NCBI RefSeq assembly: GCF_011170125.1
Contig: NZ_BLLN01000005.1
Span: forward strand, 62,001-126,000
Direction: 5' to 3'
Source of the DNA: Streptomyces diastaticus subsp. diastaticus
Lineage (GTDB): Bacteria > Actinomycetota > Actinomycetes > Streptomycetales > Streptomycetaceae
DNA: 64,000 bases
In this document: one piece after another, positions 29,571-47,578 of the stretch
How positions within the stretch are numbered: the first letter of the stretch is position 1
Layout of the letters: the number at the start of each line of letters is the position of its first letter
Notes under the pieces: model-generated
What the model saw: only the letters and a program-made list of their open reading frames with translations
What the model was told of the DNA's origin: nothing
Database searches by the model: none
Position numbers and translations under genes: made by a program

Positions 29571-30000
29571 CCGAGCTGGTCGGCAAATGCCGATCGCGAC
29601 GCGAGAAACCGGGCATAACACCATGTTCTGCGCGGAGGGATTGATTCCACGGAATCCGGTTGACCCTGAACCGTGCGACCTATTAGTCTCTCGGCCATTG
29701 CACGGGAAGTTGTCGGTACGAAAAGGCGACACGGGGGGCCCGGTTTGTTGACTTACTTTTTCGCCTGGGAATAGTTGCGCGTAGACCTGACTTGAGGTAC
29801 GCGCCCTCAGGCCGACCGTCCCGCGGAATCCCGGGCGGACTTCACTGATCACCGATCTTCCATCCACATCGCGACGTCTCGCACTGTCATGCCATCACTC
29901 ATGCCGTGAATGATGGCGTGTTTCGCCGTGCCGAGGTCTCGTCGCGATTGCTTTCATGCACACAATCACCGAGCTCAGAGCGAGATTTCGAGGGTCATCT
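29571..30000 (+). promoter_or_regulatory. Control region of the ATP-grasp/Hpg cluster
   Basis: About 430 bp, clearly less GC-rich than its surroundings and without a gene. TTGACT at about 29749 followed after about 18 bp by TAGTTG is a possible promoter. GAGGG at 29989-29993 suits the GTG at 30001 as ribosome site. No regulator gene of the cluster type lies within the cluster. Confidence 0.4.
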
Positions 30001-31245
30001 GTGTCTAAACGCGTCCTGGTGGTACAACCGGCGTTCTCCGCGAACGCCTACGTCGCCCATGCCCATTCTCTCGGCTGGGAGATCTTAGTCGCCTCCCACG
30101 AAAGCGACGGCCGCGTAGTCGCCGACGCCGTGCGTTCTCTGGCCACAGAGATCCTCACCGTGGACACCAACGACAACGCCGCCCTCGAGGCCGCGGTCGA
30201 AGCATCTCACCAGCAGGACCCCATCCACGCCGTGGTCGCCGGCGGCGAGTACTACGTCCCGGCCGCCGCGCTGCTGTCCGCCCGGCTCGGCCTGTCCGGC
30301 CTGGCCCCCGCCGCCGTCGACCTGGTCCGGCACAAGGCGAGAATGCGTGAGGCGGTCGCCGCCTCCGGCTTGGAGCAGCCGAAGTTCACCGTCGTCCGCG
30401 ACGCCGCGGAGATCGACGCCGCCTGTGCGCACGTGGGCCTGCCCGCCGTCGTCAAGCCGGTCGACTCCGGCGGCAGCGTGCACGTCTCCCGCGTCGACAC
30501 CCCGGACGAGGCCCGCGCCGCACTCGCGGCGATCCACGCCGAGGAGGGCTTCGAGTTCGACCGGGCGCTGACCACCGACGCCATCGTCGAACAGTACGTA
30601 CCCGGCACGGAGTACAGCGCCGACGGCTACGTGCACGACGGCGAAGTGGTTGTCGTCGCCGTGACGCGCAAGCTCCTCGGGCCCGAGCCCCGCTTCCTGG
30701 AGCTCGGCCACCTCACCCCGGCCCCGCTCGACGAGCCCACCCGCTCCGCGCTGGCCGCTTACGCCACCGATGTCGTCAAGGCGGTGCGCATCACGACCGG
30801 CCCGTTCCACTGCGAGCTGCGGCTCAGCGACGGCCGCCCGGTGCTCATGGAGGTGGCGGCGCGCCTGCCCGGCGACAAGATCACCGAGCTCATGGAGATG
30901 GCCACCGGCCTGGTGCTGCCCGGGCGGGTCCTCGCGGATCTCACCGGCTCCGACCCCGTGCGTGCGAAAGCCCACAAGGAGACGTTCGCCAAGGCCGCCG
31001 GAATCCGCTTCCTGACGGCCGGCGGAACGGGTTCGTACGCGCGACTCGAAGGCTGGGAAGAACTCTCGGCGGAACCATGGGTGGTGGCGAACCCGGTCCT
31101 TATCGCGCCGGGTGCGCCCATCAAGACCACCGAAGCGGATTACAGCTGCCGCATTGCCGCTGTCGTTTTCACGGCGGATTCCCCCGAAGAGGCCCACGAA
31201 CGGTGGACCGAAATCGGTGAGCGCGTACGCGTGATCGGCGCCTGA
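30001..31245 (+). CDS. ATP-grasp ligase 1 of the Hpg cluster
   Basis: 414 residues from the GTG at 30001 (an upstream ATG at 29956 lacks a ribosome site). ATP-grasp enzymes join a carboxylate to an amine through an acyl-phosphate. Visible elements are an N-terminal domain (VLVVQPAFSANAYVAHAHSLG), AVVKPVDSGGSVHVSRV (phosphate grip), DAIVEQYVPGTEYSADGYVH, and the metal-binding core FHCELRLSDGRPVLMEVAAR followed by LPGDKI. It belongs to the amino-acid ligase type (BacD/DdaF-like). A TTA codon at 30085-30087 suggests bldA-dependent translation. It leads the cluster and is followed after 59 bp by the luciferase-like monooxygenase. Confidence 0.87.
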   Translation: MSKRVLVVQPAFSANAYVAHAHSLGWEILVASHESDGRVVADAVRSLATEILTVDTNDNAALEAAVEASHQQDPIHAVVAGGEYYVPAAALLSARLGLSGLAPAAVDLVRHKARMREAVAASGLEQPKFTVVRDAAEIDAACAHVGLPAVVKPVDSGGSVHVSRVDTPDEARAALAAIHAEEGFEFDRALTTDAIVEQYVPGTEYSADGYVHDGEVVVVAVTRKLLGPEPRFLELGHLTPAPLDEPTRSALAAYATDVVKAVRITTGPFHCELRLSDGRPVLMEVAARLPGDKITELMEMATGLVLPGRVLADLTGSDPVRAKAHKETFAKAAGIRFLTAGGTGSYARLEGWEELSAEPWVVANPVLIAPGAPIKTTEADYSCRIAAVVFTADSPEEAHERWTEIGERVRVIGA

Positions 31246-31304
31246 CGCACACCCTCCGCTCGAAATCCGCGATCGGCGCTGAATAACGAAAGGGAGATCC
31301 CCTC

Positions 31305-32369
31305 ATGGACGCTCTGCGCTTTCACTGGTGCTCGCCGCCCGACACGGGCCAGGCCACGCCCACGGACACCTACAAGATCGGCGCGCTCGACATGGGCGAA
31401 GTCACCGACTTCGTCCAGGAAGCCGAAGAACTCGGTGTCGACAGCCTGCTGTTCGGAATTTCCAACTACCTGCCCGACCCGCTCCCGGTGCTCGGTGCGC
31501 TCTCGCAGGTGACGGACCGCGTGAAATTCATGCTCGCGTACCGTCCCGGCCTCATGTCACCGACCCTCTTCGCCCAGGTCGTCAACACCCTGGCGTGGAT
31601 GTCGGACCGACGCATCTCCCTCAACATCGTCTCCGGCATCTCCCCCGCGGAGCAGGCCGGGTACGGCGACTTCCTCAGCCACGACGAGCGGTACGCCCGC
31701 TGCGGCGAATTCCTGGAGATCATCCGCGGTCTCTGGGAGGACAAGCAGCCCATGAGCTACGACGGCAAGCACTACACCCTCGAGGACGCGTCGCTGGGTC
31801 TCGGTCACAAGGGCGGCGGCCGCCCGGAGATCTACATCAGCGGCGCCTCCGCCGTGGCGCAGCAGACCGCGCTCGCCTCGGGCGACTGCTGGCTGCGGTA
31901 CGGGGACACCCCCGAGGGGATCGCGAAGGCGAGCAAGCCCGTCCTCGACGGCGGCACCCGGGTCGGCACCCGTATGCACGTCCTGGCCCGCCCCACCCGC
32001 GAGGAGGCGGTGGCGGAGCTGGCGCGCCTCATGCGCAACCCGGACGAGGACCACGAGGCGTGGATCCGCAAGTGGGTCGACACGACCGACTCGGAGGCCG
32101 TGAAGTCCTCGTACCGTCTCGCCGACGGCGCGAAGGACGAGTGGCTCTCCCCCTTCATCTGGACCGGCGCTGTCGCCTACCGCGGCGGTCCGGCGCTCTG
32201 CATCGTCGGCAGCTATGAGGAAGTGGCCACCTACGTCCACAGCTACAAGGCCGCGGGCGTCAGTGAGTTCATCTTCTCCGGCTGGCCGACGCGGGACGAG
32301 ATGCGGAACTTCTTCACCCATGTGGTCCCGCTGATCCGCCGCCTCGAAGAGCAGGAGCCGACCGCGTGA
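31305..32369 (+). CDS. Luciferase-like FMN-dependent monooxygenase
   Basis: 354 residues, ATG with AAGGGAGAT upstream. It is an SsuD-like TIM-barrel flavin monooxygenase that uses FMNH2 supplied by a separate reductase. Family signatures are FHWCSPPDTG, EAEELGVDSLLFG, SPTLFAQVVNTLAWMSDRRI, LNIVSGISPAEQAGYGDFLS, HDERYARCGEFLEIIRGLW and YISGASAVAQQTA. Its last bases overlap the start of the second ATP-grasp gene, so they are coupled. The reductase partner is probably the flavin reductase at 36199. Members oxidise C-H, C-S or N positions; the target here is unknown. Confidence 0.87.
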   Translation: MDALRFHWCSPPDTGQATPTDTYKIGALDMGEVTDFVQEAEELGVDSLLFGISNYLPDPLPVLGALSQVTDRVKFMLAYRPGLMSPTLFAQVVNTLAWMSDRRISLNIVSGISPAEQAGYGDFLSHDERYARCGEFLEIIRGLWEDKQPMSYDGKHYTLEDASLGLGHKGGGRPEIYISGASAVAQQTALASGDCWLRYGDTPEGIAKASKPVLDGGTRVGTRMHVLARPTREEAVAELARLMRNPDEDHEAWIRKWVDTTDSEAVKSSYRLADGAKDEWLSPFIWTGAVAYRGGPALCIVGSYEEVATYVHSYKAAGVSEFIFSGWPTRDEMRNFFTHVVPLIRRLEEQEPTA

Positions 32370-33589
32370 GCGCGCCCGAGGAACGCGAGCTGCTACTCGT
32401 CGGCGTCGGCTTCATGGGACGTCCGTACGCGGCGGCCGCCAAGCGGCTGGGCCTGCGGGTCCGCGCCATCGAGGCGCACGACTGGGCCGGGGCCATCGAG
32501 CACCTGGTCGACGCCGTCGAGCCGAGCCAGGGCCGGTACGGCGCGCTGGACGAGCTGTGGGCGGAGACCGTGCACGCGGCCGTGGAGAAGAGCCTACCGA
32601 CCGGCATCTTCGGGTTCACCGAGTCGCACGTCCTGGGCGCGGCCATGGCCCAGGACCGCTTCGGACTGCCCGGCCCCTCCCTCCAGGCGGCCGTGATTTC
32701 GCGGAACAAGGCGCTCCAGCGCGGGCGGTTCCGCGTCCAGGGGATCGGCCAGCCCGAGTACCGCCTCACCGACGACCTGGCGGCCGCGGCCGAGTGGGCC
32801 GCCGCCCGCCTGCCGGTGATCGTGAAGCCCCTCTCGTCGGCCGGCAGCGACGGCGTCGAGCTGGTGGCCGACACCGAGTCGTTCGAGCGGGCCGCGGTGC
32901 GGCGCGCCGCCGAGCGGCCGCTGCTGGTGGAGAAGGCGCTCGACGGACCGGAGTACAGCTGGGAGGCCCTGGTCCGGGACGGCGAGGTCTGGTTCTCCAA
33001 CCTGACCGCCAAGGAGACGACGGGCCCGCCCCACTTCGTCGAGGTCACACACCGTACGGTGCCGCCCCTGTCGGAGCCGGACGCCCAGCGGGTCGCCGCA
33101 CTGGGCCGGGAGGTCCTCGCGGCCATCGGTATGCGCACCGGGATCGTCCACCTGGAGTTCCGGCTGACGCGGTCGGGGCCGGCGGTGATGGAGGTGGCGG
33201 TCCGCACGCCCGGCGACTACCTCATGGAGCTGTGCTCCCTGACGTACGGGATCGACTGGTTCGAGATGGTGGTGCGGCTCACCACCGGGATGGAGCTGCC
33301 CCCGGCGCCCCAGAGCCCGGTGCGGTATGCGGCCAGCCATTTCGTGATCTCCGATCCGGGCCAGGTCGTCGCCGTCGACGGGCTGGAGGAGGTCCTCGGC
33401 CATCCCGCGGTCGAGGACGCCGCGTTCAAGGTGGCGGTGGGCGACATCGTCCCGAGGACGTCCTCCTCCTTGCAGCGGACCGGGTACGCGGTGCTCGCCG
33501 CGGACTCGCCCGAGGAGCGGGAGGAAGCCATCGCGTTCGTCCGCCGGACGCTGTCGGTCAAGACGGTTCCCGTGGCGTCGGAGGAGTGA
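32366..33589 (+). CDS. ATP-grasp ligase 2 of the Hpg cluster
   Basis: 407 residues, GTG start overlapping the previous stop. The N-terminal domain opens with LLLVGVGFMGRPYAAAAKRL. The ATP-grasp part shows PVIVKPLSSAGSDGVELVAD, PLLVEKALDGPEYSWEALV and the metal site IVHLEFRLTRSGPAVMEVAV then RTPGDYLMEL. The fold is the same as ligase 1 but the sequence is clearly different, so it is not a recent duplicate and probably forms another bond. The stop is 3 bp from the third ligase. Confidence 0.86.
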   Translation: MSAPEERELLLVGVGFMGRPYAAAAKRLGLRVRAIEAHDWAGAIEHLVDAVEPSQGRYGALDELWAETVHAAVEKSLPTGIFGFTESHVLGAAMAQDRFGLPGPSLQAAVISRNKALQRGRFRVQGIGQPEYRLTDDLAAAAEWAAARLPVIVKPLSSAGSDGVELVADTESFERAAVRRAAERPLLVEKALDGPEYSWEALVRDGEVWFSNLTAKETTGPPHFVEVTHRTVPPLSEPDAQRVAALGREVLAAIGMRTGIVHLEFRLTRSGPAVMEVAVRTPGDYLMELCSLTYGIDWFEMVVRLTTGMELPPAPQSPVRYAASHFVISDPGQVVAVDGLEEVLGHPAVEDAAFKVAVGDIVPRTSSSLQRTGYAVLAADSPEEREEAIAFVRRTLSVKTVPVASEE

Positions 33590-33591
33590 GC

Positions 33592-34836
33592 ATGCACATC
33601 GTTGTCGTCAACCGCTGGCCCAGGTTCCATGACGGCCGCCGCTGGGACTTCTCCCTCGGCCGTTTCGAGGAACTCATCGACCACGACCGGCACCGCGTCA
33701 GCTACGTGGTCGATCCGGTCGGCGCCACCGGCGTCCTCGCGGACCCCGCCAAGATCGCGAGCCTCGTCCAGATCGGCGATGTCAACGACTTCGCGGCGCT
33801 CCGCGACGCCGTCCGGCAGGTCGCGGAGGAGGTCGGCCCCGTCGACCGGCTCGTGGCCGTCTCGGAGTTCACGCTCGGCATCGCGGCGGAGGTCCGCGAG
33901 GCCCTGGACATCCCCGGGCCGCGCCCCGCCGACGTGGCGGTCTACCGCGACAAGCTGCGGATGAAGGAAATGGTCGCCGAGGCCGGCGTCCGCGTACCGC
34001 GCTTCGCCTCGTGCGCGGACCGCGGCGCCGCGGTGGAGTTCGCCCGGTCGACCGGGTTCCCCCTGATCCTCAAGCCGGTGGGCGGCGCGGCGAGCATCGG
34101 TATCCACCGGGTCGAGGACGAGGCCGCGCTCACCGTCCTGCTGGATCAGGTCGACACCGCCGACCACGAACTCGAGGAGTTCATCGACGGGGCCATCTAC
34201 CACGTGGACGGATTCGCGGACCAGGACGCCCGGATCCCCTTCATGGCGGTCTCCCGCTACATCAACGACTGCCTGTCCTTCGAGGCCGCCGGGGAACCGC
34301 TCGGTTCGGTCGTCGTGCAGGCGTCCCCGCTGCGGGAGCGGGTGGAGGAGTTCGCGCGGCGGTGCGTGTCGGCGCTCGGCATGACCTCCATGCCCTTCCA
34401 TCTGGAACTCTTCCTCACCCCCGGCGGAGAGCTGGTCTTCCTGGAGGTCGCCGGTCGTATCGGCGGCGCCGAGGTGCCGTACCTCACGGAGAAGCTCTTC
34501 GGGATCAACCTCTTCCGTGCCTGGCTGGACGCCGTCTGCGAGGGCGGGGCCACGCTCCCGCCTCAGGTGGGCGACCCGTCGGGCGGCTGGCTCATCATCC
34601 CGAAGCCGGGCGGGCTGCCGGCCCGAGTGAGGAGTGTGACCTCGCTGCGCGAGGAGTTCGGCACGATCTGGCGCGAGCTGGTTCCGGCCGTCGGCGACGT
34701 CATGGAGCCCGGCGGCAGCTACGACGCCGTGCACAGCGGTCGGTTCATCCTCGTCGGCGACGAGGAGACCGTGGAGGAGGACATCCGGAAGATCATCGCC
34801 GGATTCCACCTCGAGACCGCCCCGGTGCGGCAGTGA
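33592..34836 (+). CDS. ATP-grasp ligase 3 of the Hpg cluster
   Basis: 414 residues from ATG 33592, with GGAGG in the end of the preceding gene. It starts MHIVVVNRWPRFHDGRRWDF, continues through PLILKPVGGAASIGIHRVED, the conserved linker ELEEFIDGAIYHVDGFADQD, and the catalytic core FHLELFLTPGGELVFLEVAG then RIGGAEVPYLTEKLFGINL. This subfamily usually couples free amino acids or small acids without carrier proteins. Three adjacent ligases suggest at least two amide bonds, or activation of an unusual unit. Confidence 0.86.
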   Translation: MHIVVVNRWPRFHDGRRWDFSLGRFEELIDHDRHRVSYVVDPVGATGVLADPAKIASLVQIGDVNDFAALRDAVRQVAEEVGPVDRLVAVSEFTLGIAAEVREALDIPGPRPADVAVYRDKLRMKEMVAEAGVRVPRFASCADRGAAVEFARSTGFPLILKPVGGAASIGIHRVEDEAALTVLLDQVDTADHELEEFIDGAIYHVDGFADQDARIPFMAVSRYINDCLSFEAAGEPLGSVVVQASPLRERVEEFARRCVSALGMTSMPFHLELFLTPGGELVFLEVAGRIGGAEVPYLTEKLFGINLFRAWLDAVCEGGATLPPQVGDPSGGWLIIPKPGGLPARVRSVTSLREEFGTIWRELVPAVGDVMEPGGSYDAVHSGRFILVGDEETVEEDIRKIIAGFHLETAPVRQ

Positions 34837-34888
34837 CACGGCTCGCGCCGGGCCGCGGCCGGGCGAGCGAAAGGGAGCGACCAAGCTG

Positions 34889-36133
34889 ATGTCCACCCGA
34901 CCACGGCTGCACCGAAGACTCTTCGGCTGCGGTGTCCTTTTAGGGATCGTCGCCGAGCAGATGATGCTCTTCGCGGTGCCGCTGCTCATCTTCCAGGACA
35001 CCGAAGAAGTCTCGGCCCTCGGATTCGCCTACGCGATCGAGTGGCTGCCGGCGCTGCTGGCGTACCCGTTCGCCGGCCTCCTCGCCGACCGGGACGGCGG
35101 TGCGCGGCTCTTCCGCTTCGTCACCGCCGGCCGGGGCGTCGTCCTCATCGGCGCGCTGATCGGCTGCCTGGCGGCGCCCTCCCTGCTGACGCCGATCCTG
35201 ATGACCTCGGGCGCGCTGCTCTCCCTGTTGATGGCGCCGGTGCGGATGTCCGTCGAGAAGGTGGTGCCGCAGCTGGCCAAGGACACGGAGCTGGCGAAGA
35301 TCCAGGGCCTGGTACAGAGCATGGAGGTCTCGGCGATGGCCGTGGGCCCCGCTCTGGCCATGCTGGGCGTTGCCTTCCTCGACAAGATCTGGCTCCTGGG
35401 CGGTGCCGCTCTCGTCTTCCTCGCCGCCGCCGCCTGCTGGCTGCCGCTGCCGCGCGGGCTGCGCACCCCCAGCACCGGCAAGGCGCGCGAGACCTTCGCC
35501 GAGCTGCGGCTGGGCTGGTCGATCCTCAGACACACGAAGCCGCTGGTCCTGTTGGCCTCGCTCAACTTCTCGATCAACCTGGTCTTCTCGACGGTGCTCA
35601 GCGCCAACGCCGCACTGGTCACCGGGGTGTTCAAGGCCCCCGAGTCGACGTTCGCCCTGCTCAACATCTGTGTCGGGGTCCTGGGGATCGTCAATCTCCT
35701 GTTGATTCCCTTCACTCTCAAATTCGTGGGTGTCCGCACCCTCGGAATATTCGGCCTCTCCCTGCTCTGCGTCTGCCTGATATCCATCGGCTGGGCCACG
35801 TCCATGCTGCTCTACGGCGCGGCATTCGTCGCGGCCATGCTCGGCGTGACCTACTTCAATGTTTTCAACCGGACTCAGCGAATCAGGGTCCTGCCGCAGG
35901 AGCATCTGGGTAAGGTGATGGGACCGTTCTATCTGCTCAATATGCTGGCCCTGCCCCTGGCCGGCCTTCTCGTCGCCGGCTTCGGCTCCAGTCTCGGCCC
36001 GCAGCGACTCGTCGCCATTCTGGCGATATCGCTCACCGTATTCGGCGCGATCATGCTGCCCCTGACGATTCGCGCCTTCAGTCGTGCGTTCGCCGCGCAG
36101 GAGAAGACTCTCGTGGGCGCGAACGCGGAATAG
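34889..36133 (+). CDS. MFS exporter of the cluster
   Basis: 414 residues, ATG with AAGGGAGC upstream. About twelve hydrophobic segments are visible, with an MFS-type loop LLADRDGGARLFRFV between the second and third. It resembles the MFS_3/EntS-like exporters found in many Streptomyces clusters. It carries a TTA codon at 34940-34942 (second residue of the Leu pair in GVLLGIV), an uncommon feature typical of bldA-controlled genes. Likely role: export of the product and self-protection. Confidence 0.85.
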   Translation: MSTRPRLHRRLFGCGVLLGIVAEQMMLFAVPLLIFQDTEEVSALGFAYAIEWLPALLAYPFAGLLADRDGGARLFRFVTAGRGVVLIGALIGCLAAPSLLTPILMTSGALLSLLMAPVRMSVEKVVPQLAKDTELAKIQGLVQSMEVSAMAVGPALAMLGVAFLDKIWLLGGAALVFLAAAACWLPLPRGLRTPSTGKARETFAELRLGWSILRHTKPLVLLASLNFSINLVFSTVLSANAALVTGVFKAPESTFALLNICVGVLGIVNLLLIPFTLKFVGVRTLGIFGLSLLCVCLISIGWATSMLLYGAAFVAAMLGVTYFNVFNRTQRIRVLPQEHLGKVMGPFYLLNMLALPLAGLLVAGFGSSLGPQRLVAILAISLTVFGAIMLPLTIRAFSRAFAAQEKTLVGANAE

Positions 36134-36198
36134 TGACGGCATTTCATGAAAACGGTCCATCCAGCATCGATTCAGCAGCTGCTCCGAGGAGGAACGTG

Positions 36199-36717
36199 AT
36201 GGGTACGGGCTCTGCGCGGTTCAGCGAATTCTTCGGCTCGTTCCCCACGCCGATCTCGATCGTGACGGCACGGGACCGCGAGGGCCGGCTGTTCGGCTTC
36301 ACCAGCAACGCCGTGTGTTCCGTCTCGGCGGCCTCGCGGACGCTGCTCGTCTCGGTGGGCAAGGGGTCACGCACCCTGCCGGCCATCCAGGAGTCGCAGG
36401 CCTTCGCGGTGAATTTCCTCTCCGCTGCCGGGCGGGCCGCCTCACAGGTATTCGCGAGTAAAGCCGCGGACAAATTCGCCAATGTGGAATGGGAGCCTTC
36501 ACCTGTAGCGGAAGGCGCTCCCCTACTTGTCGACATCGCCTTGAGTTTTGCCGAATGCAGGGTTGAGAATGCTATCGAAGTCAGCGACCATTGGCTCTTC
36601 ATAGCCCGAGTGGAAGAAAGTACCGTCTTCCCTCGCGAGCCCTTGCTCTACCGCAGAGGCGACTACGGCATCTGGTCGCCGAACAACGCCGGCGTAGAAG
36701 AACTCTCGGCTTTATGA
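36199..36717 (+). CDS. Flavin reductase, partner of the monooxygenase
   Basis: 172 residues from ATG 36199, which has a very strong GAGGAGG at 36186-36192; the GTG at 36133 touching the previous stop lacks one. It is a HpaC/SnaC-like flavin reductase: RFSEFFGSFPTPISIVTARD, GFTSNAVCSVSAASRTLLV and FAVNFLSAAGRAASQVF are typical FMN-binding split-barrel blocks. Expected reaction: NAD(P)H-dependent reduction of FMN for the luciferase-like enzyme at 31305. The gene sits after the exporter and 57 bp before the hydroxymandelate synthase gene. Confidence 0.85.
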   Translation: MGTGSARFSEFFGSFPTPISIVTARDREGRLFGFTSNAVCSVSAASRTLLVSVGKGSRTLPAIQESQAFAVNFLSAAGRAASQVFASKAADKFANVEWEPSPVAEGAPLLVDIALSFAECRVENAIEVSDHWLFIARVEESTVFPREPLLYRRGDYGIWSPNNAGVEELSAL

Positions 36718-36774
36718 AAGCCCTGCGCCCGCCCTCGCCTCTCACTCACTCCCAGAGAAAAGAAAGGCATTTGC

Positions 36775-37839
36775 ATGGACATCGGAGCCGTAGACCACGT
36801 CGAGTTCTACGTCGGAGACGCACAGCAGTCGGCGTTCTACCTCTGCACCGGGTTCGGCTTCCGGGTGTGCGGACAGGCCGGCCCCGAGAACGGGCAGGCC
36901 GACCACCGCTCGCTGCTGCTGCGGCAGGGCGGTACCGAGATCGTCCTCACCTCCGCGCTGACTCCTGACCACCCGGCCGCGGCCTACGTGGCTCAGCACG
37001 GCGACGGTGTCGCCAACATCGCGTTCGAGGTCAGCGACGCGGCCAAGGCGTTCGCGCTCGCGGTGGAACGGGGGGCCACCGCAGTCGAGGAGCCGGTCGT
37101 GCACAGCCAGGACGGCACCGAAGTGGTCACCGCCTCGGTCCTGGGCTTCGGGGACGTGGCGCACCGCTTCGTCCAGCGGTCCGGGGACCGGGACCAGTTC
37201 CTGCCCGGGGTGATGGACATCTTCGCCGCCGACCCCGACGAGGGCGAGCAGCTCCTGAGCATCGTCGACCACGCGGCGATCTGCCTGCCGGCCGGGCAGC
37301 TCCGCTCCACCGTCGCCTTCTACGAGAAGGTCTTCGGCTTCTCCCAGATCTTCGAGGAGTTCATCGAGGTCGGCAGCCAGGCCATGGACTCCAAGGTGGT
37401 GCAGAGCCCGTCCGGCAAGGTGACCTTCACCCTGATCGAGCCGGTCACCGACCGCGAACCCGGCCAGATCGACACCTTCCTGGCCCGCCACGGCGGCGCG
37501 GGCGTCCAGCACCTGGCCCTGCTCTGCGACGACATCGTCTCGACCGTGGAGACCCTGGGCAACCGCGGCGTCGCGTTCCTCCAGACCCCGGGCTCCTACT
37601 ACGACCAGCTCCAGGAGCGCTTCGTCCGCTCGAACCTCCTGGTCGAGGACCTGCGCCGGACCAATGTGCTGATCGACGAGGACCACTGGGGCCAGGTGTT
37701 CCAGATCTTCACCCAGTCCCAGCACGTCCGGAAGACCTTCTTCTGGGAGGTCATCGACCGGCACGGCGCCCGCACCTTCGGCAGCGGCAACATCAAGGCG
37801 CTCTACGAAGCGGTCGCCCGCGAGAAGATCACCTCCTGA
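36775..37839 (+). CDS. hmaS: 4-hydroxymandelate synthase
   Basis: 354 residues. Fe(II)-dependent enzyme turning 4-hydroxyphenylpyruvate into 4-hydroxymandelate. Two vicinal-oxygen-chelate halves are visible. The iron ligands are His166 (VDHAAICL), His246 (GVQHLAL) and Glu325 (FFWEVIDRHG). It is close to 4-hydroxyphenylpyruvate dioxygenase, but the C-terminal helix reads GSGNIKALYEAV: Ile340 sits where dioxygenases carry Phe (GNFKALFE), a known switch towards hydroxymandelate. ADHRSLLLRQG and TLIEPVTDREPGQIDTFL also resemble glycopeptide HmaS proteins. Hmo, HpgT and a prephenate dehydrogenase lie just downstream, which settles the assignment. Confidence 0.9.
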   Translation: MDIGAVDHVEFYVGDAQQSAFYLCTGFGFRVCGQAGPENGQADHRSLLLRQGGTEIVLTSALTPDHPAAAYVAQHGDGVANIAFEVSDAAKAFALAVERGATAVEEPVVHSQDGTEVVTASVLGFGDVAHRFVQRSGDRDQFLPGVMDIFAADPDEGEQLLSIVDHAAICLPAGQLRSTVAFYEKVFGFSQIFEEFIEVGSQAMDSKVVQSPSGKVTFTLIEPVTDREPGQIDTFLARHGGAGVQHLALLCDDIVSTVETLGNRGVAFLQTPGSYYDQLQERFVRSNLLVEDLRRTNVLIDEDHWGQVFQIFTQSQHVRKTFFWEVIDRHGARTFGSGNIKALYEAVAREKITS

Positions 37840-38105
37840 CCCTGACGCCCGCGCCGGACCCGGCCCCCTCGCCCGGCGATCAGCCCGGCTCGGCCCGCGC
37901 CACCCACCCGCTCGACAGGCGGCACCGGCAGGAGTGACGTACCCGGGCAACGTGCCCTCGGCCACTCCGCCGCTTCTCCTCCCTTCCTCCCGGCCACTCG
38001 GCCGCTCCGGCCCGGTCCCCGACCGGGCCCGCCGAGCCGTGCGCCCGGCCTCCTCCCCTCGCGCAACACGTTCGTCCATCGACCCACGCACGCGTAAGGA
38101 AGACC

Positions 38106-39023
38106 ATGACCGTCGAAGACTCCACGACCTTCACCCTGACCGCGGAGGAGCTCAGTCTCCTGCCCTCCGACGAGGACGTCGCGTTCTACGCCGAGCACGG
38201 CTGGTACCTGTCGAAGAAGCTCTTCACCGACGAGGAGGTCGAGCAGCTGGAGGCCGCCAGCGAGCGCTTCTACGCAGGCCACCGCGACCGCAAGCTGCCG
38301 GCCCGCCCGCCCAAGCTGGCGTACTGGGAGCCGGAGAAGGGCGACGTCCAGCGGCACAACGACTACATCCACTACGAGGACGACACCATCGGCCGCATCC
38401 TGCGCAAGCCGCTGCTGGGTGCCGTGGCGGCGCGGCTGGCCCGCGCCGAGCAGATACGGGTGTTCCAGTCGACCCTCATCTACAAGCCGCCGGTGGCCGA
38501 GGAGCAGTCGAACATCGTGCCCTGGCACTTCGACCGGCACTACTGGTCGACCTCCACCTCCGAGGAGATGCTGACCGCGTTCATCCCCTTCCACGACTGC
38601 GGCGAGGAGATGGGCACGATCACGATGGTCGACGGCAGCCACCTGTGGAAGGAGATGGCGGAGGCCGACAGCACCTCCCTGCACTTCGCCGAGCGCGACC
38701 GCTCCGAGCTGGACCAGATGCTCGACGACAACGCCGCGTACAACGGGGCGGAGGTCCGCAAGATCCCGGTCCACATCCCCAAGGGCCACGTCAACTTCCA
38801 CCACTGCCGCACGTACCACGGCAGCGGTGCCAACGTGAGCGACCGCCCGCGCCGTGCCATCTCGTTCCACCTCCAGGACGGCGCGAACCGCTACCGCGAC
38901 TTCTTCCGCTCGGACGGCACCCAGGTCGCCTACAACCATGACCTGCTGGTCCGTCGCACCCCCGAGGGCACCCCGGACTACTCCGACCCCGAGTTCCTCC
39001 CCCTGCTGTGGAGCGAACACTGA
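38106..39023 (+). CDS. PhyH-family Fe(II)/2OG dioxygenase
   Basis: 305 residues, ATG with AAGGAAG upstream, after a 266-bp gap that may hold a second promoter. Phytanoyl-CoA-dioxygenase fold: AFYAEHGWYLSKKLFTDEEV, metal ligands His141 and Asp143 in WHFDRHYW, TAFIPFHDCGEEMGTITMVD, and distal His238 with the 2OG-binding Arg in the stretch RTYHGSG...RPRRAISFH. Such enzymes hydroxylate amino acids or small metabolites in antibiotic pathways. Its stop overlaps the start of the prephenate dehydrogenase gene, so it belongs to the same transcript. Substrate unknown; Hpg or the partner amino acid are candidates. Confidence 0.87.
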   Translation: MTVEDSTTFTLTAEELSLLPSDEDVAFYAEHGWYLSKKLFTDEEVEQLEAASERFYAGHRDRKLPARPPKLAYWEPEKGDVQRHNDYIHYEDDTIGRILRKPLLGAVAARLARAEQIRVFQSTLIYKPPVAEEQSNIVPWHFDRHYWSTSTSEEMLTAFIPFHDCGEEMGTITMVDGSHLWKEMAEADSTSLHFAERDRSELDQMLDDNAAYNGAEVRKIPVHIPKGHVNFHHCRTYHGSGANVSDRPRRAISFHLQDGANRYRDFFRSDGTQVAYNHDLLVRRTPEGTPDYSDPEFLPLLWSEH

Positions 39024-39937
39024 TGGACAGTGCCGCCGTGGTCGGAACCGGCCTGATCGGTACATCGATCGCCCTGGCCCTTCGGGGCCGGGGCGTGGCC
39101 ACCTACCTGATCGACACGGACCAGGAGGCGGCCCGCGTCGCCGCCGGCCTCGGGGCCGGCATCGCGGGCCCCCCGCGCGGACCGGTCGACCTGGCCGTCC
39201 TCGCGGTGCCCCCGCAGCAGGTCGCAGCGGCCCTCAAGGAACACCAACTGGGCGACCTGGCTGACGACTTCACGGACGCGGCCAGCGTCAAGGAACCACC
39301 CCAGCGGGAGGCGGCTCGGCTCGGCTGCGACCTGACCCGTTTCGTCGGCGGGCATCCGATGGGCGGCCGGGAGCAGTCCGGGCCGCTGGCCGCGCGGGAC
39401 GACCTGTTCCACGGGCGGCCGTGGGTCCTCACACCGTCCGCGCGGACCCGGCCGCAGACCCATGAACGCGCCAGGCGACTGGCCGAGTTGTGCGGCGCAC
39501 GGCCTGTCGTGATGACCCACGCGGAGCACGACCGGGCGGTCGCCCTCATCTCGCACGCCCCACACCTGGTCTCGACGCTGCTGGCAGCGCGGCTGCTGCA
39601 CGGCGCACGGTCCCAGTTGGGGCTCGCCGGGCAGGGACTCCAGGACGTGACGCGGCTGGCCGGCGGCAGCGCCGAGCTGTGGACCGACATCCTCGGTTCG
39701 AACGCCGTGGCCGTCGCCGACGTCCTCGCCGACTTCGCCCACGAAGTCGACGACGTGGTCGAGGTCCTGCGGGAGCTGGGCACCGCCCGCGAGCCGGAAC
39801 AGCGACGTACGCACCTGGAAGCGCTGTCGACGGTCCTGGTCCGCGGCGTCCAGGGCCGGGCCCGGATCCCCGCCTGCGGGGGCACGGGCGCACCGAGTAC
39901 GAGTACGGCCTACGCGGCCGCGCCGGGAGGAGCCTGA
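39023..39937 (+). CDS. tyrA: Prephenate dehydrogenase
   Basis: 304 residues from the ATG at 39023 (TGATG overlap). NAD(P)-dependent oxidative decarboxylation of prephenate to 4-hydroxyphenylpyruvate. The Rossmann motif VVGTGLIGTSIALALRGRG opens the protein; DLAVLAVPPQQV, GGHPMGGREQSGP (substrate-binding His) and ISHAPHLVSTLLAARLL follow. A dedicated copy feeds the precursor pool of hydroxyphenylglycine, as in glycopeptide clusters. The next gene starts directly after its stop. Confidence 0.9.
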   Translation: MDSAAVVGTGLIGTSIALALRGRGVATYLIDTDQEAARVAAGLGAGIAGPPRGPVDLAVLAVPPQQVAAALKEHQLGDLADDFTDAASVKEPPQREAARLGCDLTRFVGGHPMGGREQSGPLAARDDLFHGRPWVLTPSARTRPQTHERARRLAELCGARPVVMTHAEHDRAVALISHAPHLVSTLLAARLLHGARSQLGLAGQGLQDVTRLAGGSAELWTDILGSNAVAVADVLADFAHEVDDVVEVLRELGTAREPEQRRTHLEALSTVLVRGVQGRARIPACGGTGAPSTSTAYAAAPGGA

Positions 39938-41275
39938 ATGGTGACGCCGACCGCTCCCCCGACACCGGCCCCCCTCTCCCTCGCCGAGCTGCACACCTCG
40001 CTCAGCGACCCGGTCCTGGACGCGATGAACTTCCTCAACGAGGTCGTCGCGCGCTTCCCGGACGCCATCTCCTTCGCGCCCGGCCGTCCCACCGAGGGCA
40101 CCTTCGAGCCGGAGGACCTCGCCCGCCATCTCCAGTCGTACACCACCTACTTGGAGCAGGAGCTGGGCTGGTCGCGCGACCAGACCCGGACCCTGCTGTT
40201 CCAGTACGGCCGTACCAACGGCATCATCCACGAGCTGATCGCAAGGACCGTCGCCAACGACGAGGGGATCGAGGTCCCGCCCGAAGCGGTGGTGGTGACG
40301 ACCGGCTGCCAGGAGGCGATGCTCCTCACTCTGCGGGCGCTCTTCGCCCGTCCCGAGGACACCCTGCTGGTCAGCTCGCCGTGTTACGTGGGCATCACCG
40401 GCGTGGCCCGGCTCCTGGGCATCCAGGTCCGCCCCGTGCCCGAGGGCCCCGACGGGCCCGACCCGCTGGCCGTCCAGGCGGCCGCCCGCGCCGCGAAGCA
40501 GGCCGGGCAGCGCCCCCGGGCCTTCTACGTGGTCCCGGACTTCGCCAACCCCTCCGGCGCGAGCATGAGCCGGGCGGCGCGGGAGCTTCTGCTGGCAGTG
40601 GCCGAGGAGGAGGAGCTGCTCGTCCTGGAGGACGACCCGTACGGCTTCTTCGTCCGGACCGGCGAGGCCCGGCCCACGCTCAAGGCGCTCGACCGCGGCC
40701 GGCGCGTCGTGCACCTGGGCTCCTTCGCCAAGACGGCGCTGCCCGGGGCCCGGGTCGGCTACGTCCTCGCCGACCAGGAGGTGGTCGGGCCCGAGGGCGG
40801 GCGGACGCTTCTCGCGGACGAGTTGTCGAAGATCAAGAGCATGACCACCGTCAACACCTCGGCCGTCAGCCAGGCCGTCATCGGCGGCCTGCTGGTCGAG
40901 AGCGGCTGCCGGCTCCGCGAGGCCAACTCGGCCGCCGTCGCGCACTACCGCACCACCATGGACACCCTGCTCGACGCGTTGGAGCGGCACTTCCCCGCGG
41001 AGCGCCAAGCCGAGCTGGGCGTCTCCTGGAACCGTCCGGACGGCGGCTTCTTCCTCGTCGTCGACGTCCCCTTCGCCGCCGACCACAAGGCCCTGGAGCT
41101 CTCCGCACGCGCCTTCGGCGTGCTGTGGACGCCGATGCGCGACTTCCACCTCGACGGCGGCGGCACCCGTCAGTTGCGGCTCTCGTGCAGCTCCCAGAGC
41201 CCGGAGGCGATCACCGAGGGCATCGCCCGGCTGGCCGCCTTCATCACCGCGCAGATCACCGGCACGGCCGCCTGA
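39938..41275 (+). CDS. hpgT: Hydroxyphenylglycine aminotransferase (HpgT-like)
   Basis: 445 residues; the start follows the previous stop without a gap. A fold type I PLP aminotransferase. Motifs are NFLNEVVARFPDAISFAPGR, LLFQYGRTNGIIHELIA, VTTGCQEAMLLTLRALF, VPDFANPSGASMS, VLEDDPYGFF and the Schiff-base Lys265 in GSFAKTALPGARVGYV. HpgT transfers the amino group of tyrosine to 4-hydroxybenzoylformate, giving L-4-hydroxyphenylglycine and regenerating 4-hydroxyphenylpyruvate for HmaS. The neighbouring hmaS and hmo make that role far more likely than general aminotransfer. Confidence 0.88.
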   Translation: MVTPTAPPTPAPLSLAELHTSLSDPVLDAMNFLNEVVARFPDAISFAPGRPTEGTFEPEDLARHLQSYTTYLEQELGWSRDQTRTLLFQYGRTNGIIHELIARTVANDEGIEVPPEAVVVTTGCQEAMLLTLRALFARPEDTLLVSSPCYVGITGVARLLGIQVRPVPEGPDGPDPLAVQAAARAAKQAGQRPRAFYVVPDFANPSGASMSRAARELLLAVAEEEELLVLEDDPYGFFVRTGEARPTLKALDRGRRVVHLGSFAKTALPGARVGYVLADQEVVGPEGGRTLLADELSKIKSMTTVNTSAVSQAVIGGLLVESGCRLREANSAAVAHYRTTMDTLLDALERHFPAERQAELGVSWNRPDGGFFLVVDVPFAADHKALELSARAFGVLWTPMRDFHLDGGGTRQLRLSCSSQSPEAITEGIARLAAFITAQITGTAA

Positions 41276-41320
41276 CACCGACGGCCCGCCACCCCCTGAC
41301 GTACGGAGAACGGAGACGAT

Positions 41321-42418
41321 GTGGTGATGGCGCTGCACACGTACGAGGCAGCGGCCGAGGAGCGCTTGCCTGGCCCGGTGTGGGACTTCTTCGCCGGCGG
41401 CAGCGGCACCGAGTCGATGCTGACGGCCGGACGGGAGGCACTGGACCGCGTCCAGCTGCGGCCGCGCTGCATGGTCGACGTCTCCCGCTGCGACCCGGGC
41501 ACCGACCTGCTGGGCGCGCGGCTGGCGGCGCCGTTGGCCGTCGCCCCCATGGCCTACCACCAACTGGCGCACCCGGAGGGCGAAGTGGCCTCGGCGCGCG
41601 GCGCGGGCGAGGCGGGCGCACTGCTCACCGTGAGCATGTTCGCGAGCCGGGCCCTGGAGGACATCGCGGCCGCGGCGAGCGGGCCACTCTGGCTCCAGCT
41701 GTACTGGCTCAGGCGCCGCGAGGTGATGCGCGACCTGATCCGGCGGGCCGAGGCCGCCGGTTTCCGGGCGCTGGTCCTGACGGTCGACGCCCCCCGGGTG
41801 GCGTACCGGCCCCGGGACGCGGCCAACGGGTTCGCCGTCCCGCCCGGCGTCCGCGCGGTCAACCTCTCCACGGAGGTCATGGCCGCCTCGCACGGCAGCA
41901 GATCGGGGGAGTCAGCCCTGGCCCGGCACTCGCGGGAGCAGTTCGACGCCTCCATCACCTGGGAGGACCTGGCCTGGCTGCGGGAGGTGACCTCGCTGCC
42001 GGTGGTACTGAAGGGCGTCCTCACCGGCGAGGACGCGGAGTTGGCGGTCAAGCACGGAGTCTCGGGACTGATCGTCTCCAACCACGGCGGCCGCCAGCTC
42101 GACTTCGCCCGCAGCGCCCCGGAGTGCCTCACCGAGGTGGTGGACGCCGTCGGCGGGAGCTGCCCGGTCATCCTCGACGGAGCGATCCGGCACGGCGCCG
42201 ACCTGGCCAAGGCGCTCTGCATGGGGGCGGACGCGGTCATGCTGGGACGCCCGGCCCTGTGGGGCCTCGCGCACTCCGGCGACGCAGGGGTCGCCGGAGT
42301 GCTGCGGCTGCTCATCGACCAGTTCGAGGAGGTGATGGCCTTGATGGGAGCACCGACCGTCGCCGACTTCGGGCGGTCCGGCATCGCGTATCCCGTCTGC
42401 GGCCGTCTCCCGTCCTGA
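41321..42418 (+). CDS. hmo: 4-hydroxymandelate oxidase, FMN-dependent
   Basis: 365 residues from the GTG at 41321; the ATG at 41327 is an alternative. It is an alpha-hydroxyacid oxidase of the glycolate-oxidase family, expected to convert 4-hydroxymandelate to 4-hydroxybenzoylformate with O2. Motifs: GPVWDFFAGGSGTESMLTAG, APLAVAPMAYHQLAHPEGE, LWLQLYWLRRREV, LKGVLTGEDAELAVKHG, the catalytic His255 with Arg in IVSNHGGRQLDF, and VMLGRPALWGL. It is last in the cluster; a strong hairpin follows 10 bp after the stop. Confidence 0.9.
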   Translation: MVMALHTYEAAAEERLPGPVWDFFAGGSGTESMLTAGREALDRVQLRPRCMVDVSRCDPGTDLLGARLAAPLAVAPMAYHQLAHPEGEVASARGAGEAGALLTVSMFASRALEDIAAAASGPLWLQLYWLRRREVMRDLIRRAEAAGFRALVLTVDAPRVAYRPRDAANGFAVPPGVRAVNLSTEVMAASHGSRSGESALARHSREQFDASITWEDLAWLREVTSLPVVLKGVLTGEDAELAVKHGVSGLIVSNHGGRQLDFARSAPECLTEVVDAVGGSCPVILDGAIRHGADLAKALCMGADAVMLGRPALWGLAHSGDAGVAGVLRLLIDQFEEVMALMGAPTVADFGRSGIAYPVCGRLPS

Positions 42419-42427
42419 ACACCGCGG

Positions 42428-42455
42428 GTCCGGCCGGCCCCAGCGCCGGCCGGAC
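42428..42455 (+). terminator. Hairpin terminator at the end of the cluster
   Basis: An 11-bp perfect stem GTCCGGCCGGC / GCCGGCCGGAC with a 6-nt loop lies between the convergent hmo and aldo/keto reductase genes, so it probably stops transcription from both sides. Confidence 0.8.
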
Positions 42456-42477
42456 CGCGTCCGTCTCCCGTACGCGG

Positions 42478-43530
42478 CTACTCCGCGGCGGCCCGCTCCC
42501 CGACCGGGCGCCTGCGCCGGTCGAGGTGGGTGAGCGACGGCGGCTGCCACACGCCGTCGGGCTGGTAGAGATCGGTGCCGGGGGCCACGATCGCGTCGAT
42601 CCGGTCGAGCACCTCGTCCTCCAGCACCAGGTCGGCGCCGTCGAGCAGCGAGGTGAGCTGGTCCATGGTGCGCGGGCCGATGATCACCGAGGTGACGGCC
42701 GGGTGCACCAGTGGAAACGCGACGGCCAGCTCCGGCAGACCACACCCCATTTCCTCGGCGAGGGCGATGAGCTGCTCGGCGACCGCGAGCTTGGCGGCGT
42801 TTCCCGGCACGGCCGGGTCGAACCGCTTCGGCGTGCGCTTGGCCCGCCCGGTGGTGAGGTCGACCGGCCGGCCCTCACGGTACTTGCCGGAGAGGAAGCC
42901 CGAGGCCAGCGGCGACCAGGTCAGCACGCCCATCCCCAGCCGCCGAGCGGTCGGCAGCACCGACCGCTCGATGCCGCGCGCCAGGATCGAGTACGGCGGC
43001 TGCTCCGTCCGCATCCGCATCAGCCCGCGCCGCTCCGCCACATGATGCGCCTCGACGAGGTCCTCGGCGGGGAAGGTGGACGAGCCGAATGCCCGGATCT
43101 TCCCCTCCCGCACGAGGTCGCTCAGGACGGACAGCGTCTCCTCGACATCCGTCGTGTGGTCGGGCCGGTGCACCTGGTAGAGGTCGATCCACTCCGTGTC
43201 CAGCCGCCGCAGACTGTCCTCGACGGCCCGCACGATCCACCGGCGCGAGTTCCCGCTCCGGTTGCGCCCCTCCCCCATCGGGAAGTGCACCTTCGTCGCG
43301 AGCACGACATCGTCCCGCCGCCCCTTGAGCGCCTTCCCGACGATCTCCTCGCACTCCCCGGTCGCGTACATGTCGGCGGTGTCCATGAAGTTGATCCCCG
43401 CGTCCAACGCCGCGTTGACCACCCGCGAGCAGTCCTCGTGATCAGGATTCCCGGCCCCCCCGAACATCATCGTGCCGAGACAGTGCGTACTGACCTCAAT
43501 GCCGGTCTTACCGAGAACGCGATAACGCAT
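42478..43530 (-). CDS. Aldo/keto reductase
   Basis: 350 residues, ATG start. NAD(P)H-dependent reductase with a TIM barrel. The N-terminus MRYRVLGKTGIEVSTHCLGT and the catalytic tetrad are readable: Asp and Tyr in FMDTADMYATGECE, Lys in VVLATKVHFPMG, His in IDLYQVHRPDHTTD; SPLASGFLSGKYREG and TSVIIGPRTMDQL mark the cofactor end. It converges on the biosynthetic cluster across a terminator and is probably independent of it. Substrate unknown. Confidence 0.9.
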   Translation of the reverse strand: MRYRVLGKTGIEVSTHCLGTMMFGGAGNPDHEDCSRVVNAALDAGINFMDTADMYATGECEEIVGKALKGRRDDVVLATKVHFPMGEGRNRSGNSRRWIVRAVEDSLRRLDTEWIDLYQVHRPDHTTDVEETLSVLSDLVREGKIRAFGSSTFPAEDLVEAHHVAERRGLMRMRTEQPPYSILARGIERSVLPTARRLGMGVLTWSPLASGFLSGKYREGRPVDLTTGRAKRTPKRFDPAVPGNAAKLAVAEQLIALAEEMGCGLPELAVAFPLVHPAVTSVIIGPRTMDQLTSLLDGADLVLEDEVLDRIDAIVAPGTDLYQPDGVWQPPSLTHLDRRRRPVGERAAAE

Positions 43531-47500: not shown

Positions 47501-47578
47501 AGCACCCGCCGCGCGCTCACCGAGTGGCAGATGCAGCAATCGTTGATGGATCAACCGATTGATGAGCAAGATCGATAA
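44525..47578 (+). CDS. NB-ARC STAND ATPase with long TPR array
   Basis: At least 1017 residues. The GTG at 44525 is the first conventional start, but protein-like sequence in frame (GGIFADHGSIAVGYAEQVHH) extends upstream towards about 44400 without ATG or GTG, so the true start is unsure. The NB-ARC part has Walker A VLTGTGGVGKTQLAADYA, Walker B WLVVLDDLAD, a sensor region TLVTTRRRDAALT and GHLPLALAQAAAYL. A winged-helix stretch follows, then about 13 TPR units of 42 residues (WRGEAGDAAGAAAAFEELL, LGPDHPDTL) to the end. STAND proteins of this form sense a ligand through the repeats and then oligomerise; many act in defence or cell death. No enzymatic effector domain is visible, so the effector may be the upstream small protein or missing. 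Confidence 0.85.
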   Translation: MLPPRALSFQHRAEVDQLRTAVDGGGTAVLSQVLTGTGGVGKTQLAADYARTAWDSGSVDVLVWISASSRSAITNGYAQAGVEVLGADPTDTEKATREFLAWLEPKTGTKPCRWLVVLDDLADPADLRGLWPPASPRGRTLVTTRRRDAALTGAGRRLVHVGLFMPWEAAAYLTEVLAAHDHTEPAEQINALAADLGHLPLALAQAAAYLVDAELACADYRELFADRMRKLADLLPESSSLPDDQAVTVAATWSLSIERADQLRPAGLARPMIQLAAMLDPNGIPATVLTSQPALAHVTERRTSNGTDSTHQAAPVSAEDAVRALRALHRLSLIDHSPPTPHQAVRVHQLIQRATRDALTPDQHDRVALTAADALSAAWPDVERDTGLARTLRANVTALTHTAEDALYLRSAPHRVLFRAGRSLGQAGQVTDAIAHFDRLTEATRHRLGPDHTHALGARNMLARWRGEAGDAAGAVAAFEELLADQERSLGPDHIDTLMTRRALAGWRGEAGDAAGAAAAFEELLADPAWLLGPDSPDTLAVRDELARWRGEAGDAAGAAAARKNLLADRVRVLGPDHPDTLSTRHELARWRGMAGDAAGAAAAFEELLPDQERVMGPDHPDTLTARHELARWQGMAGEAAGAAAALEELLPDQERVLDPDHFHTLVTRYNLANMRGVAGDVAGAAAAFEELLPDQERVMGPDHPNTLNARGCLANSRGMAGDAAGAAAALEELLPDQERVMGADHPDTLNTEFNLAWWRGAAGDTAALEELLADRARALGPDHLHTLIAHVGLAHWRGDAQDVTGPAAALKELLAPDPARLSGPDLPDNLNARNKLARLRSDAAAWKKQLVDQVRVLGPGHPRALVARHELAELRGKAGDAAGAVAAFQELLADRTRVLGPDHPDTLLTRYEIAGWRATAGDAAGAVAAFQELLAAEVRVLGPDHPDTLMTRYEIAGWRGEAGDGAGALAAFRELLIDQMRVLGPDHPKTLSTRRALTEWQMQQSLMDQPIDEQDR
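45895..47530 (+). repeat. About 13 tandem 126-bp TPR-coding repeats
   Basis: Each unit encodes about 42 residues around GDAAGAAAAFEELLPDQERV and MGPDHPDTL. Units at about 46280-46760 are nearly identical at DNA level, including a shared GGGGACGCGGCGGGTGCCGC. Two units (about 46800-46900 and 47040-47100) are shortened. Such homogeneity indicates recent unit duplication and likely length variation between strains. Confidence 0.85.

Follow-up and report, generated by a model that had tools for sequence, protein, structure and literature searches.

A Streptomyces operon predicted to assemble a 4-hydroxyphenylglycine peptide with stand-alone ATP-grasp ligases

Bacilysin and dapdiamide are peptides built by ligases without a nonribosomal peptide synthetase (NRPS), and their clusters contain a stand-alone ATP-grasp ligase, an exporter and dedicated amino-acid genes. 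4-Hydroxyphenylglycine (Hpg), a rare building block of vancomycin-type antibiotics, is supplied in the glycopeptide, calcium-dependent antibiotic (CDA) and nocardicin pathways by 4-hydroxymandelate synthase (HmaS), 4-hydroxymandelate oxidase (Hmo), the aminotransferase HpgT and prephenate dehydrogenase (Pdh); to our knowledge it occurs only in NRPS products. Here we describe an operon in which both themes appear to meet. It lies in a stretch of 64 000 nt (the window) from the 7.08 Mb genome of Streptomyces diastaticus subsp. diastaticus (contig NZ_BLLN01000005.1, 62001-126000) and consists of eleven co-directional genes, here called A to K in their order. Taken as a whole, we consider it probable that this is an NRPS-free operon for an Hpg peptide, in which a cassette for modified Hpg is set into a chassis made up of a luciferase-like monooxygenase (LLM), ligase D and an exporter.

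The initial annotation of this DNA had reported eleven tightly spaced genes with three ATP-grasp ligases. All of them are present, on the + strand and supported by Pfam matches; the cluster starts at 29956 (not at 30001) and ends at 42418:

A, 29956..31245, + strand: ATP-grasp ligase of the L-amino acid ligase type, 429 amino acids (aa); Pfam ATP-grasp_4 and LAL_C2
B, 31305..32369, + strand: luciferase-like flavin mononucleotide (FMN) monooxygenase (the LLM, SsuD-like), 354 aa, the hub gene of the family described below; Pfam Bac_luciferase
C, 32366..33589, + strand: ATP-grasp ligase of the L-amino acid ligase type, 407 aa; Pfam ATP-grasp_4 and LAL_C2
D, 33592..34836, + strand: ATP-grasp ligase, 414 aa, the constant partner of the LLM; Pfam ATP-grasp_4
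E, 34889..36133, + strand: predicted exporter of the major facilitator superfamily (MFS), 414 aa; Pfam MFS_1
F, 36133..36717, + strand: flavin reductase, presumed to supply reduced FMN (FMNH2) to B, 194 aa; Pfam Flavin_Reduct
G, 36775..37839, + strand: HmaS, 354 aa; Pfam glyoxalase/HPPD; best match in the Protein Data Bank (PDB) 2r5v (PCZA361.1)
H, 38106..39023, + strand: PhyH-type Fe(II)/2-oxoglutarate (2OG) dioxygenase of the Hpg cassette, 305 aa; Pfam PhyH
I, 39008..39937, + strand: prephenate dehydrogenase (4-hydroxyphenylpyruvate supply), 309 aa; Pfam PDH_N and PDH_C
J, 39938..41275, + strand: HpgT-type aminotransferase, 445 aa; Pfam Aminotran_1_2
K, 41321..42418, + strand: Hmo, 365 aa; Pfam FMN_dh

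Nine of the ten junctions overlap or are shorter than 60 bp, the gap between G and H being 266 bp. The earlier statement that no NRPS, polyketide synthase (PKS) or carrier gene lies inside the cluster is borne out by a Pfam scan of the eleven proteins, in which no adenylation, condensation or carrier domain was matched. Searching 392 genomes of the genus with C gave a match at E 1e-40 or better in 25 genomes, the own genome included; since our genome searches scored few candidates each (four in the results shown for C and D, at most five for H), this count, and those of 4/396 for D and 32/392 for H given below, may be lower bounds. Four further genomes (G456, G592, G420 and G670) contain all eleven genes in identical order and orientation, with 73-92% protein identity. 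With the window this makes five complete syntenic copies, all in Streptomyces. The ratio of non-synonymous to synonymous substitution rates (dN/dS) of the individual genes is 0.12-0.31 against locus L032 and 0.16-0.45 against L034, and all eleven genes are thus under purifying selection in both comparisons. The syntenic copies in four other Streptomyces together with the low dN/dS values argue that the gene set is not a chance assembly.

We propose that the operon would make and export a small peptide without an NRPS. I, G, K and J would turn prephenate into L-Hpg, and H would modify Hpg or one of its precursors ahead of ligation. A, C and D would then link the modified Hpg residue with between one and three additional amino acids; D and the FMNH2-dependent B (fed by F) may be a chassis common to the family, making the same oxidised unit in every member, with A and C attaching the variable part and E exporting the product. 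The substrates of the ligases, the reactions of the LLM and of the PhyH enzyme, the length of the peptide and any bioactivity are predictions from gene content and homology. The small Hpg-containing peptide named by the initial annotation fits this gene content, but the 2OG-dependent step, which that annotation had counted as tailoring of the peptide, is moved here to the building block.

The LLM connects the operon to a wider family. Seven aligned LLMs and two short peptide patterns were used to scan 84,980 species genomes, a search that is not exhaustive, and 64 loci were obtained. Of these, 62 (L052-L113) were counted; L114 (26% identity) and L115 (a partial protein of 68 residues) were left out, and L009, L033 and L035 took part in the clustering outside the counts of 62. 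Genes were called with a simple GC-frame script, which found the LLM in 61/62 loci and did not call F in L052 and L053; in L032 and L034, the loci corresponding to these two, F is detected by tblastn. Because of such misses the counts for E and F are lower bounds. An ATP-grasp member of the clustering is present in 61/62 LLM loci, and a relative of D with more than 36% identity occurs within ~10 kb of the LLM in 59/62, the exceptions being L056 and L096, whose contigs measure 7 and 9 kb, and L092, where identity is 31%. For background, 4/396 genomes drawn from the phylum, among them that of the window, gave a relative of D at E 1e-30 or better, with some four candidates scored in each. The MFS family of E is found in at least 49/62 loci and the flavin reductase family of F in at least 26/62. 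No second close LLM was found in the genome of the window, and around two more distant LLMs (L010 and L011, 36-40%) there was no match to A, C or D in ~25-29 kb. By their other genes, with Pfam run on representatives, the 62 loci sort into the following types:

Type I, 3/62 loci: Hpg genes; identity to D 77-80%
Type II, 3/62 loci: aspartate kinase, semialdehyde dehydrogenase and class III aminotransferase (named from sequence, unscanned) with glutamate mutase subunits; identity to D 63-75%
Type III, 33/62 loci: glutamate mutase subunits, a PP-loop-like protein (so named by inspection, without a Pfam match) and a class II tRNA-synthetase-like protein; identity to D 50-65% for 33/35 D-assigned proteins
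Type IV, 2/62 loci: a PALP/ornithine-cyclodeaminase-type pair; identity to D 57%
Type V, 15/62 loci: 5-enolpyruvylshikimate-3-phosphate (EPSP) synthase and DUF1611, mostly with a haem-oxygenase-like and a PhyH-like protein (the latter named by eye); identity to D 39-43%
Type VI, 4/62 loci: a haem-oxygenase-like protein; identity to D 37-39%
Other types, 2/62 loci

C-like proteins are found in three types (I, II and IV) and in a single locus of type III, and A-like proteins with more than 40% identity in type I, in one of the three type II loci, in type VI and in the truncated L056. The gene pair of type IV, judged by SbnA/SbnB, presumably makes diaminopropionate, which is a residue of dapdiamide. 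In a tree of the LLMs (quick method, with SH-aLRT, an approximate likelihood ratio test, as the only support) the six type I rows lie inside a starred group together with the three type II loci, nearest to L055, as if the Hpg cassette had replaced earlier building-block genes. A distant version of the cluster is seen on a Pseudoalteromonas xiamenensis plasmid (L009), with an LLM of 47% identity, three ATP-grasp genes, an MFS gene, DUF6421, a prephenate-dehydratase-like protein and a 3-deoxy-D-arabino-heptulosonate 7-phosphate (DAHP) synthase/chorismate mutase. The cluster, which the initial annotation had taken on its own, is one branch of a larger LLM and ligase D family in which the building-block genes vary. 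A more far-reaching joint reading, which we offer tentatively and regard as possible rather than probable, is that LLM, ligase D and MFS are the chassis of an undescribed class of ligase-built peptides. D and the LLM would make a shared oxidised unit, and each branch would add its own amino-acid cassette and extra ligases: modified Hpg here, and diaminopropionate, 3-methylaspartate, aspartate-semialdehyde or EPSP-synthase-derived residues elsewhere. As part of the same tentative reading, the branch of the window would have arisen by entry of the modified-Hpg cassette into an ancestor of the aspartate-kinase type, the cassette being common to diazotase/nitrosuccinate-lyase-like clusters and to free-standing gene sets.

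The behaviour of the PhyH gene in other genomes bears on where oxidation by H takes place. Relatives of H at E 1e-30 or better occur in 32/392 genomes of the genus, at 34 places, and at each of these the ~10 kb to either side were inspected, or a shorter stretch where the contig or the fetched sequence ended. HmaS stands beside PhyH in 27/34 of these Streptomyces places, all 27 with at least 66% identity to H, and most of the 27 loci have no match to A, C or D. Three settings can be distinguished. Six places (setting a) are of the window type. Nine places (setting b, L152-L160) have Hmo and HmaS 5.7-5.8 kb apart in eight cases, the contig of L160 showing no Hmo; in L152 and L153, read gene by gene, the genes in between encode a carrier protein, adenylating enzymes and a ketosynthase. 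Proteins of L152 give sub-threshold matches to the aminoavenalumate diazotase and nitrosuccinate lyase families, and a diazo pathway using Hpg is possible for L152-L160. The remaining twelve (setting c) are other, mostly compact Hpg gene sets. HmaS and PhyH of the window are nearer to setting b (75-85%) than to setting c (43-54% and 65-71%). If a Streptomyces angustmyceticus plasmid (L117, NZ_CP104318.1) is added to setting c, 7/13 loci have an exporter of the drug/metabolite transporter (DMT) family and 5/13 a small protein, which in L164 weakly matches 5-carboxymethyl-2-hydroxymuconate isomerase; in the subset L117, L161-L165, L168 and L177 the DMT-family exporter is present in 7/8 and the muconate-isomerase-like protein in five. 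Among these thirteen loci only L173 has a match to A, C or D nearby. NRPS absence in setting c was judged by the size and annotation of open reading frames (ORFs) rather than by a domain scan; a PKS-like ORF of 1206 aa lies near L164, and NRPS-like ORFs lie near L171, a broken locus in a genome that is 55% complete. The gene content of the Hpg and PhyH sets with a DMT exporter suggests a free, modified Hpg amino acid as their product.

Clusters that differ in their assembly machinery share the same PhyH, which makes Hpg or a precursor its most likely substrate, and we conclude that H probably modifies the building block rather than the peptide. Since Hpg lacks a beta carbon beyond the ring, candidate reactions would be hydroxylation of the ring, of the alpha position or of a precursor. 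In H the residues H141-x-D143 and H238 are invariant in eight sequences, two of which (L169 and L174) have no HmaS match near. In 2OG halogenases the aspartate of the HxD motif is replaced; with this aspartate present and invariant in the eight sequences, a halogenase is not favoured for H. The best surviving alternative, which we nevertheless regard as unlikely, is that PhyH and LLM both tailor the peptide after ligation and that Hpg enters unmodified. Both genes do lie inside the operon, and late oxidation is common in peptide clusters. Against this, H is 68% identical to a protein of a plasmid-borne set consisting of HmaS, Hmo, PhyH, HpgT, a DMT exporter and prephenate dehydrogenase, for which the (incomplete) PLSDB gene table gives no ATP-grasp or NRPS gene within ~20 kb on each side, and no match to A, C or D was found there. 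Moreover, with PhyH beside HmaS at 27 of 34 places and in at least three different settings, a role at the peptide level would require a different peptide for each setting. The tailoring role first given to the 2OG enzyme is hence better exchanged for a role in making the building block.

Assembly of the peptide would fall to A, C and D, which are ATP-grasp enzymes of the L-amino acid ligase type. The best PDB matches are L-amino acid ligase BL00235 for A (3vot, 91 bits), an annotated L-amino acid ligase for C (30vh, 62 bits) and L-amino acid ligase 4wd3 for D (76 bits); BacD is also listed among the best solved relatives. In an NCBIfam scan of ten of the eleven operon proteins (I was left out) the equivalog cut-offs for BacD and DdaF were missed, A reaching 47 and 48 bits versus 850 and 840, and C and D less. 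A second alternative, in which these enzymes add amino acids to a different scaffold or make esters instead of linking amino acids to each other, is less likely than the first. ATP-grasp enzymes can esterify, as is reported for VlpF in valinophos (PMC12723261). On the other side, A, C and D all have annotated L-amino acid ligases as their best solved relatives, A and C carry the C-terminal domain of this enzyme type, and no sugar, polyketide or nucleoside family was matched among the eleven proteins. Groups of ATP-grasp genes are also seen elsewhere. The Streptomyces clusters L038-L043 contain as many as six apiece, including one with 50-61% identity to C, and show no match to the LLM. In the symbiosis region of Paraburkholderia phymatum plasmid pBPHY02, between nif and nod genes, locus L184 has a pair of neighbouring ATP-grasp genes, of which one shares 38% identity with D, and a small hypothetical gene.

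The putative partner of D in the chassis, B, has alkanesulfonate monooxygenases as its best PDB matches and belongs to the same family as SsuD. In an alignment with SsuD (L116) it keeps R223, H225 and R293, which we take to correspond to Arg226, His228 and Arg297 of E. coli SsuD, the two arginines presumably binding the anion; H225 is replaced in other members of the family (Gln in L062, Ser in L009). B stays below the NCBIfam SsuD equivalog cut-off (182.3 bits versus 518.2), and three active-site positions, those of Cys54, Tyr331 and His333 in E. coli SsuD, are replaced. Plain SsuD-type desulfonation is therefore not supported. An anionic substrate is plausible for B from the retained residues, and a sulfonate is not required.

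The route to Hpg itself rests on G, K, J and I. The best solved relatives of G are 2r5v and 3zgj; the latter is labelled 4-hydroxyphenylpyruvate dioxygenase (HPPD) in the PDB, and we take it to be an HmaS. G has the C-terminal motif GNIKAL, the second copy of this gene in the genome GNFKAL, and Ile is also found in L117 and L118; this position, Ile versus Phe in the NIKAL motif, presumably separates HmaS from HPPD. In K, the residues expected of an FMN hydroxy-acid oxidase (D156, K231, H255 and R258) are invariant in four sequences, and its PDB matches include 4-hydroxymandelate oxidase 5zzp, scoring below lactate and glycolate oxidases. J keeps the lysine that binds pyridoxal phosphate (PLP), K265, as an invariant residue. 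Four aminotransferases encoded close to HmaS-like genes (on Streptomyces plasmids and at one genome locus) share 57-62% identity with it, the HmaS-like neighbours being annotated hppD where annotated, and partial matches of 76-87% lie at the edges of several further HmaS loci.

A third alternative is that the pathway stops short of Hpg, with G being an HPPD or with the route ending at 4-hydroxyphenylglyoxylate and J using another substrate: G passes the NCBIfam 4HPPD equivalog cut-off (381 versus 277 bits), J reaches none of the cut-offs of the 25 NCBIfam families listed out of 57 matched, with general aminotransferases as its best PDB matches, and a J-like protein (51%) occurs in the same genome at L181, where there is no HmaS match, so that J-like enzymes are not confined to Hpg; yet the Ile motif that the second copy lacks, the best match to 2r5v, the presence of G, K and J together in all five complete copies and in many PhyH-HmaS loci and the relatives of J near HmaS-like genes make this alternative very unlikely. 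Three NCBIfam families were matched by G, with no separate HmaS model among them; the family library alone would name G an HPPD, and its identity as HmaS rests on the motif, the best PDB match and the context. Of the assignments in the initial annotation, HmaS, Hmo and HpgT are supported by the HmaS motif, the Hmo residues and the PLP lysine and relatives of J, and TyrA by the Pfam matches of I; its gene assignments largely hold, with the reservation that G also lies above the 4HPPD cut-off. Locus L181 (G000:C5:2540800-2560700) also contains A-like (36%) and D-like (35%) ATP-grasp genes, two NRPS-like ORFs and two genes that by eye resemble TauD and MFS genes.

Several observations weigh against an NRPS-free Hpg-peptide operon with this chassis and cassette. 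Besides the 4HPPD score of G, the ligases are only distantly related to characterised enzymes (best matches 62-91 bits), and their substrates can thus not be inferred from sequence. The D-like proteins of types V and VI (37-43%) could be paralogues; D was assigned as the best match among A, C and D, without a tree, which leaves orthology in these two types unproven. Relatives of D are also found in loci without a match to this LLM. At seven of the 34 PhyH places HmaS was not matched nearby; identity to H does not exceed 65% at any of these, and two of them (L170 and L174) are on short contigs. Finally, a sixth locus found with H, in Streptomyces monashensis (G687, L054/L151), has A, B, D and F-K, and thus keeps the Hpg genes, the LLM and D, but lacks a match to C and has only a fragment of E. 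C may thus be dispensable or the S. monashensis copy may be decaying.

Upstream of the operon lies a gene for a GH35 beta-galactosidase, and downstream one for an aldo-keto reductase in convergent orientation; the latter had no match in L032-L035, where the downstream flank is barely covered. An NB-ARC/TPR protein (44525-47578 of the window) adjoins the cluster and is probably unrelated. An ORF in another frame over D (34011-34889) had no Pfam match, and a terminator and promoter scan of 42350-42560 found none.

The initial annotation knew of no product with this gene set, and we likewise found no described cluster with these genes in the open-licence full-text literature, which is weak evidence of novelty as subscription journals and cluster databases were outside the scope. 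NRPS-free ligase peptides and the Hpg supply pathway are known already; their combination, the pairing of LLM and D as a chassis and the PhyH enzyme in the cassette look new. If D and the LLM do make a shared unit, this would define a new class of ligase-built peptides. The pairing of LLM and ligase D also serves as a search rule, which brings up dozens of clusters in the Actinomycetota and Pseudomonadota, the products of which were not found in the literature searched, and the HmaS-linked PhyH points to a modified Hpg residue across many Streptomyces. A stand-alone ligase accepting Hpg would also be useful, since in a 2026 NRPS-free route to penicillins the coenzyme A ligase is reported to have been unable to activate Hpg, and its engineering was sought (PMC13338154).

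Compared with described systems, the pantaphos (hvr) cluster comes close in layout: its description places a two-component flavin monooxygenase, ATP-grasp genes and an MFS exporter in one small operon and calls HvrB NtaA/ScmK-like (PMC7858074). The monooxygenase of the window is SsuD-like in contrast, a distinction drawn from that description rather than from a sequence comparison, and no phosphonate family is found among the Pfam matches of the eleven proteins; a phosphonate cluster was rejected on these grounds. With the Hpg supply of the glycopeptide, CDA and nocardicin pathways the operon shares the same four enzyme steps, and Nonomuraea gerenzanensis proteins are 51% (HmaS) and 48% (Hmo) identical to those of the window. 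Unlike in these pathways, the Hpg genes of the window are paired with ATP-grasp ligases, without an NRPS, and the cassette includes PhyH, for which no match is listed in the N. gerenzanensis record at E 1e-10. The bacilysin (BacD) and dapdiamide (DdaF) clusters share with the operon the stand-alone ATP-grasp ligases, the exporter and the dedicated amino-acid genes, whereas the window has three ligases and, in addition, the LLM, PhyH and Hpg genes.

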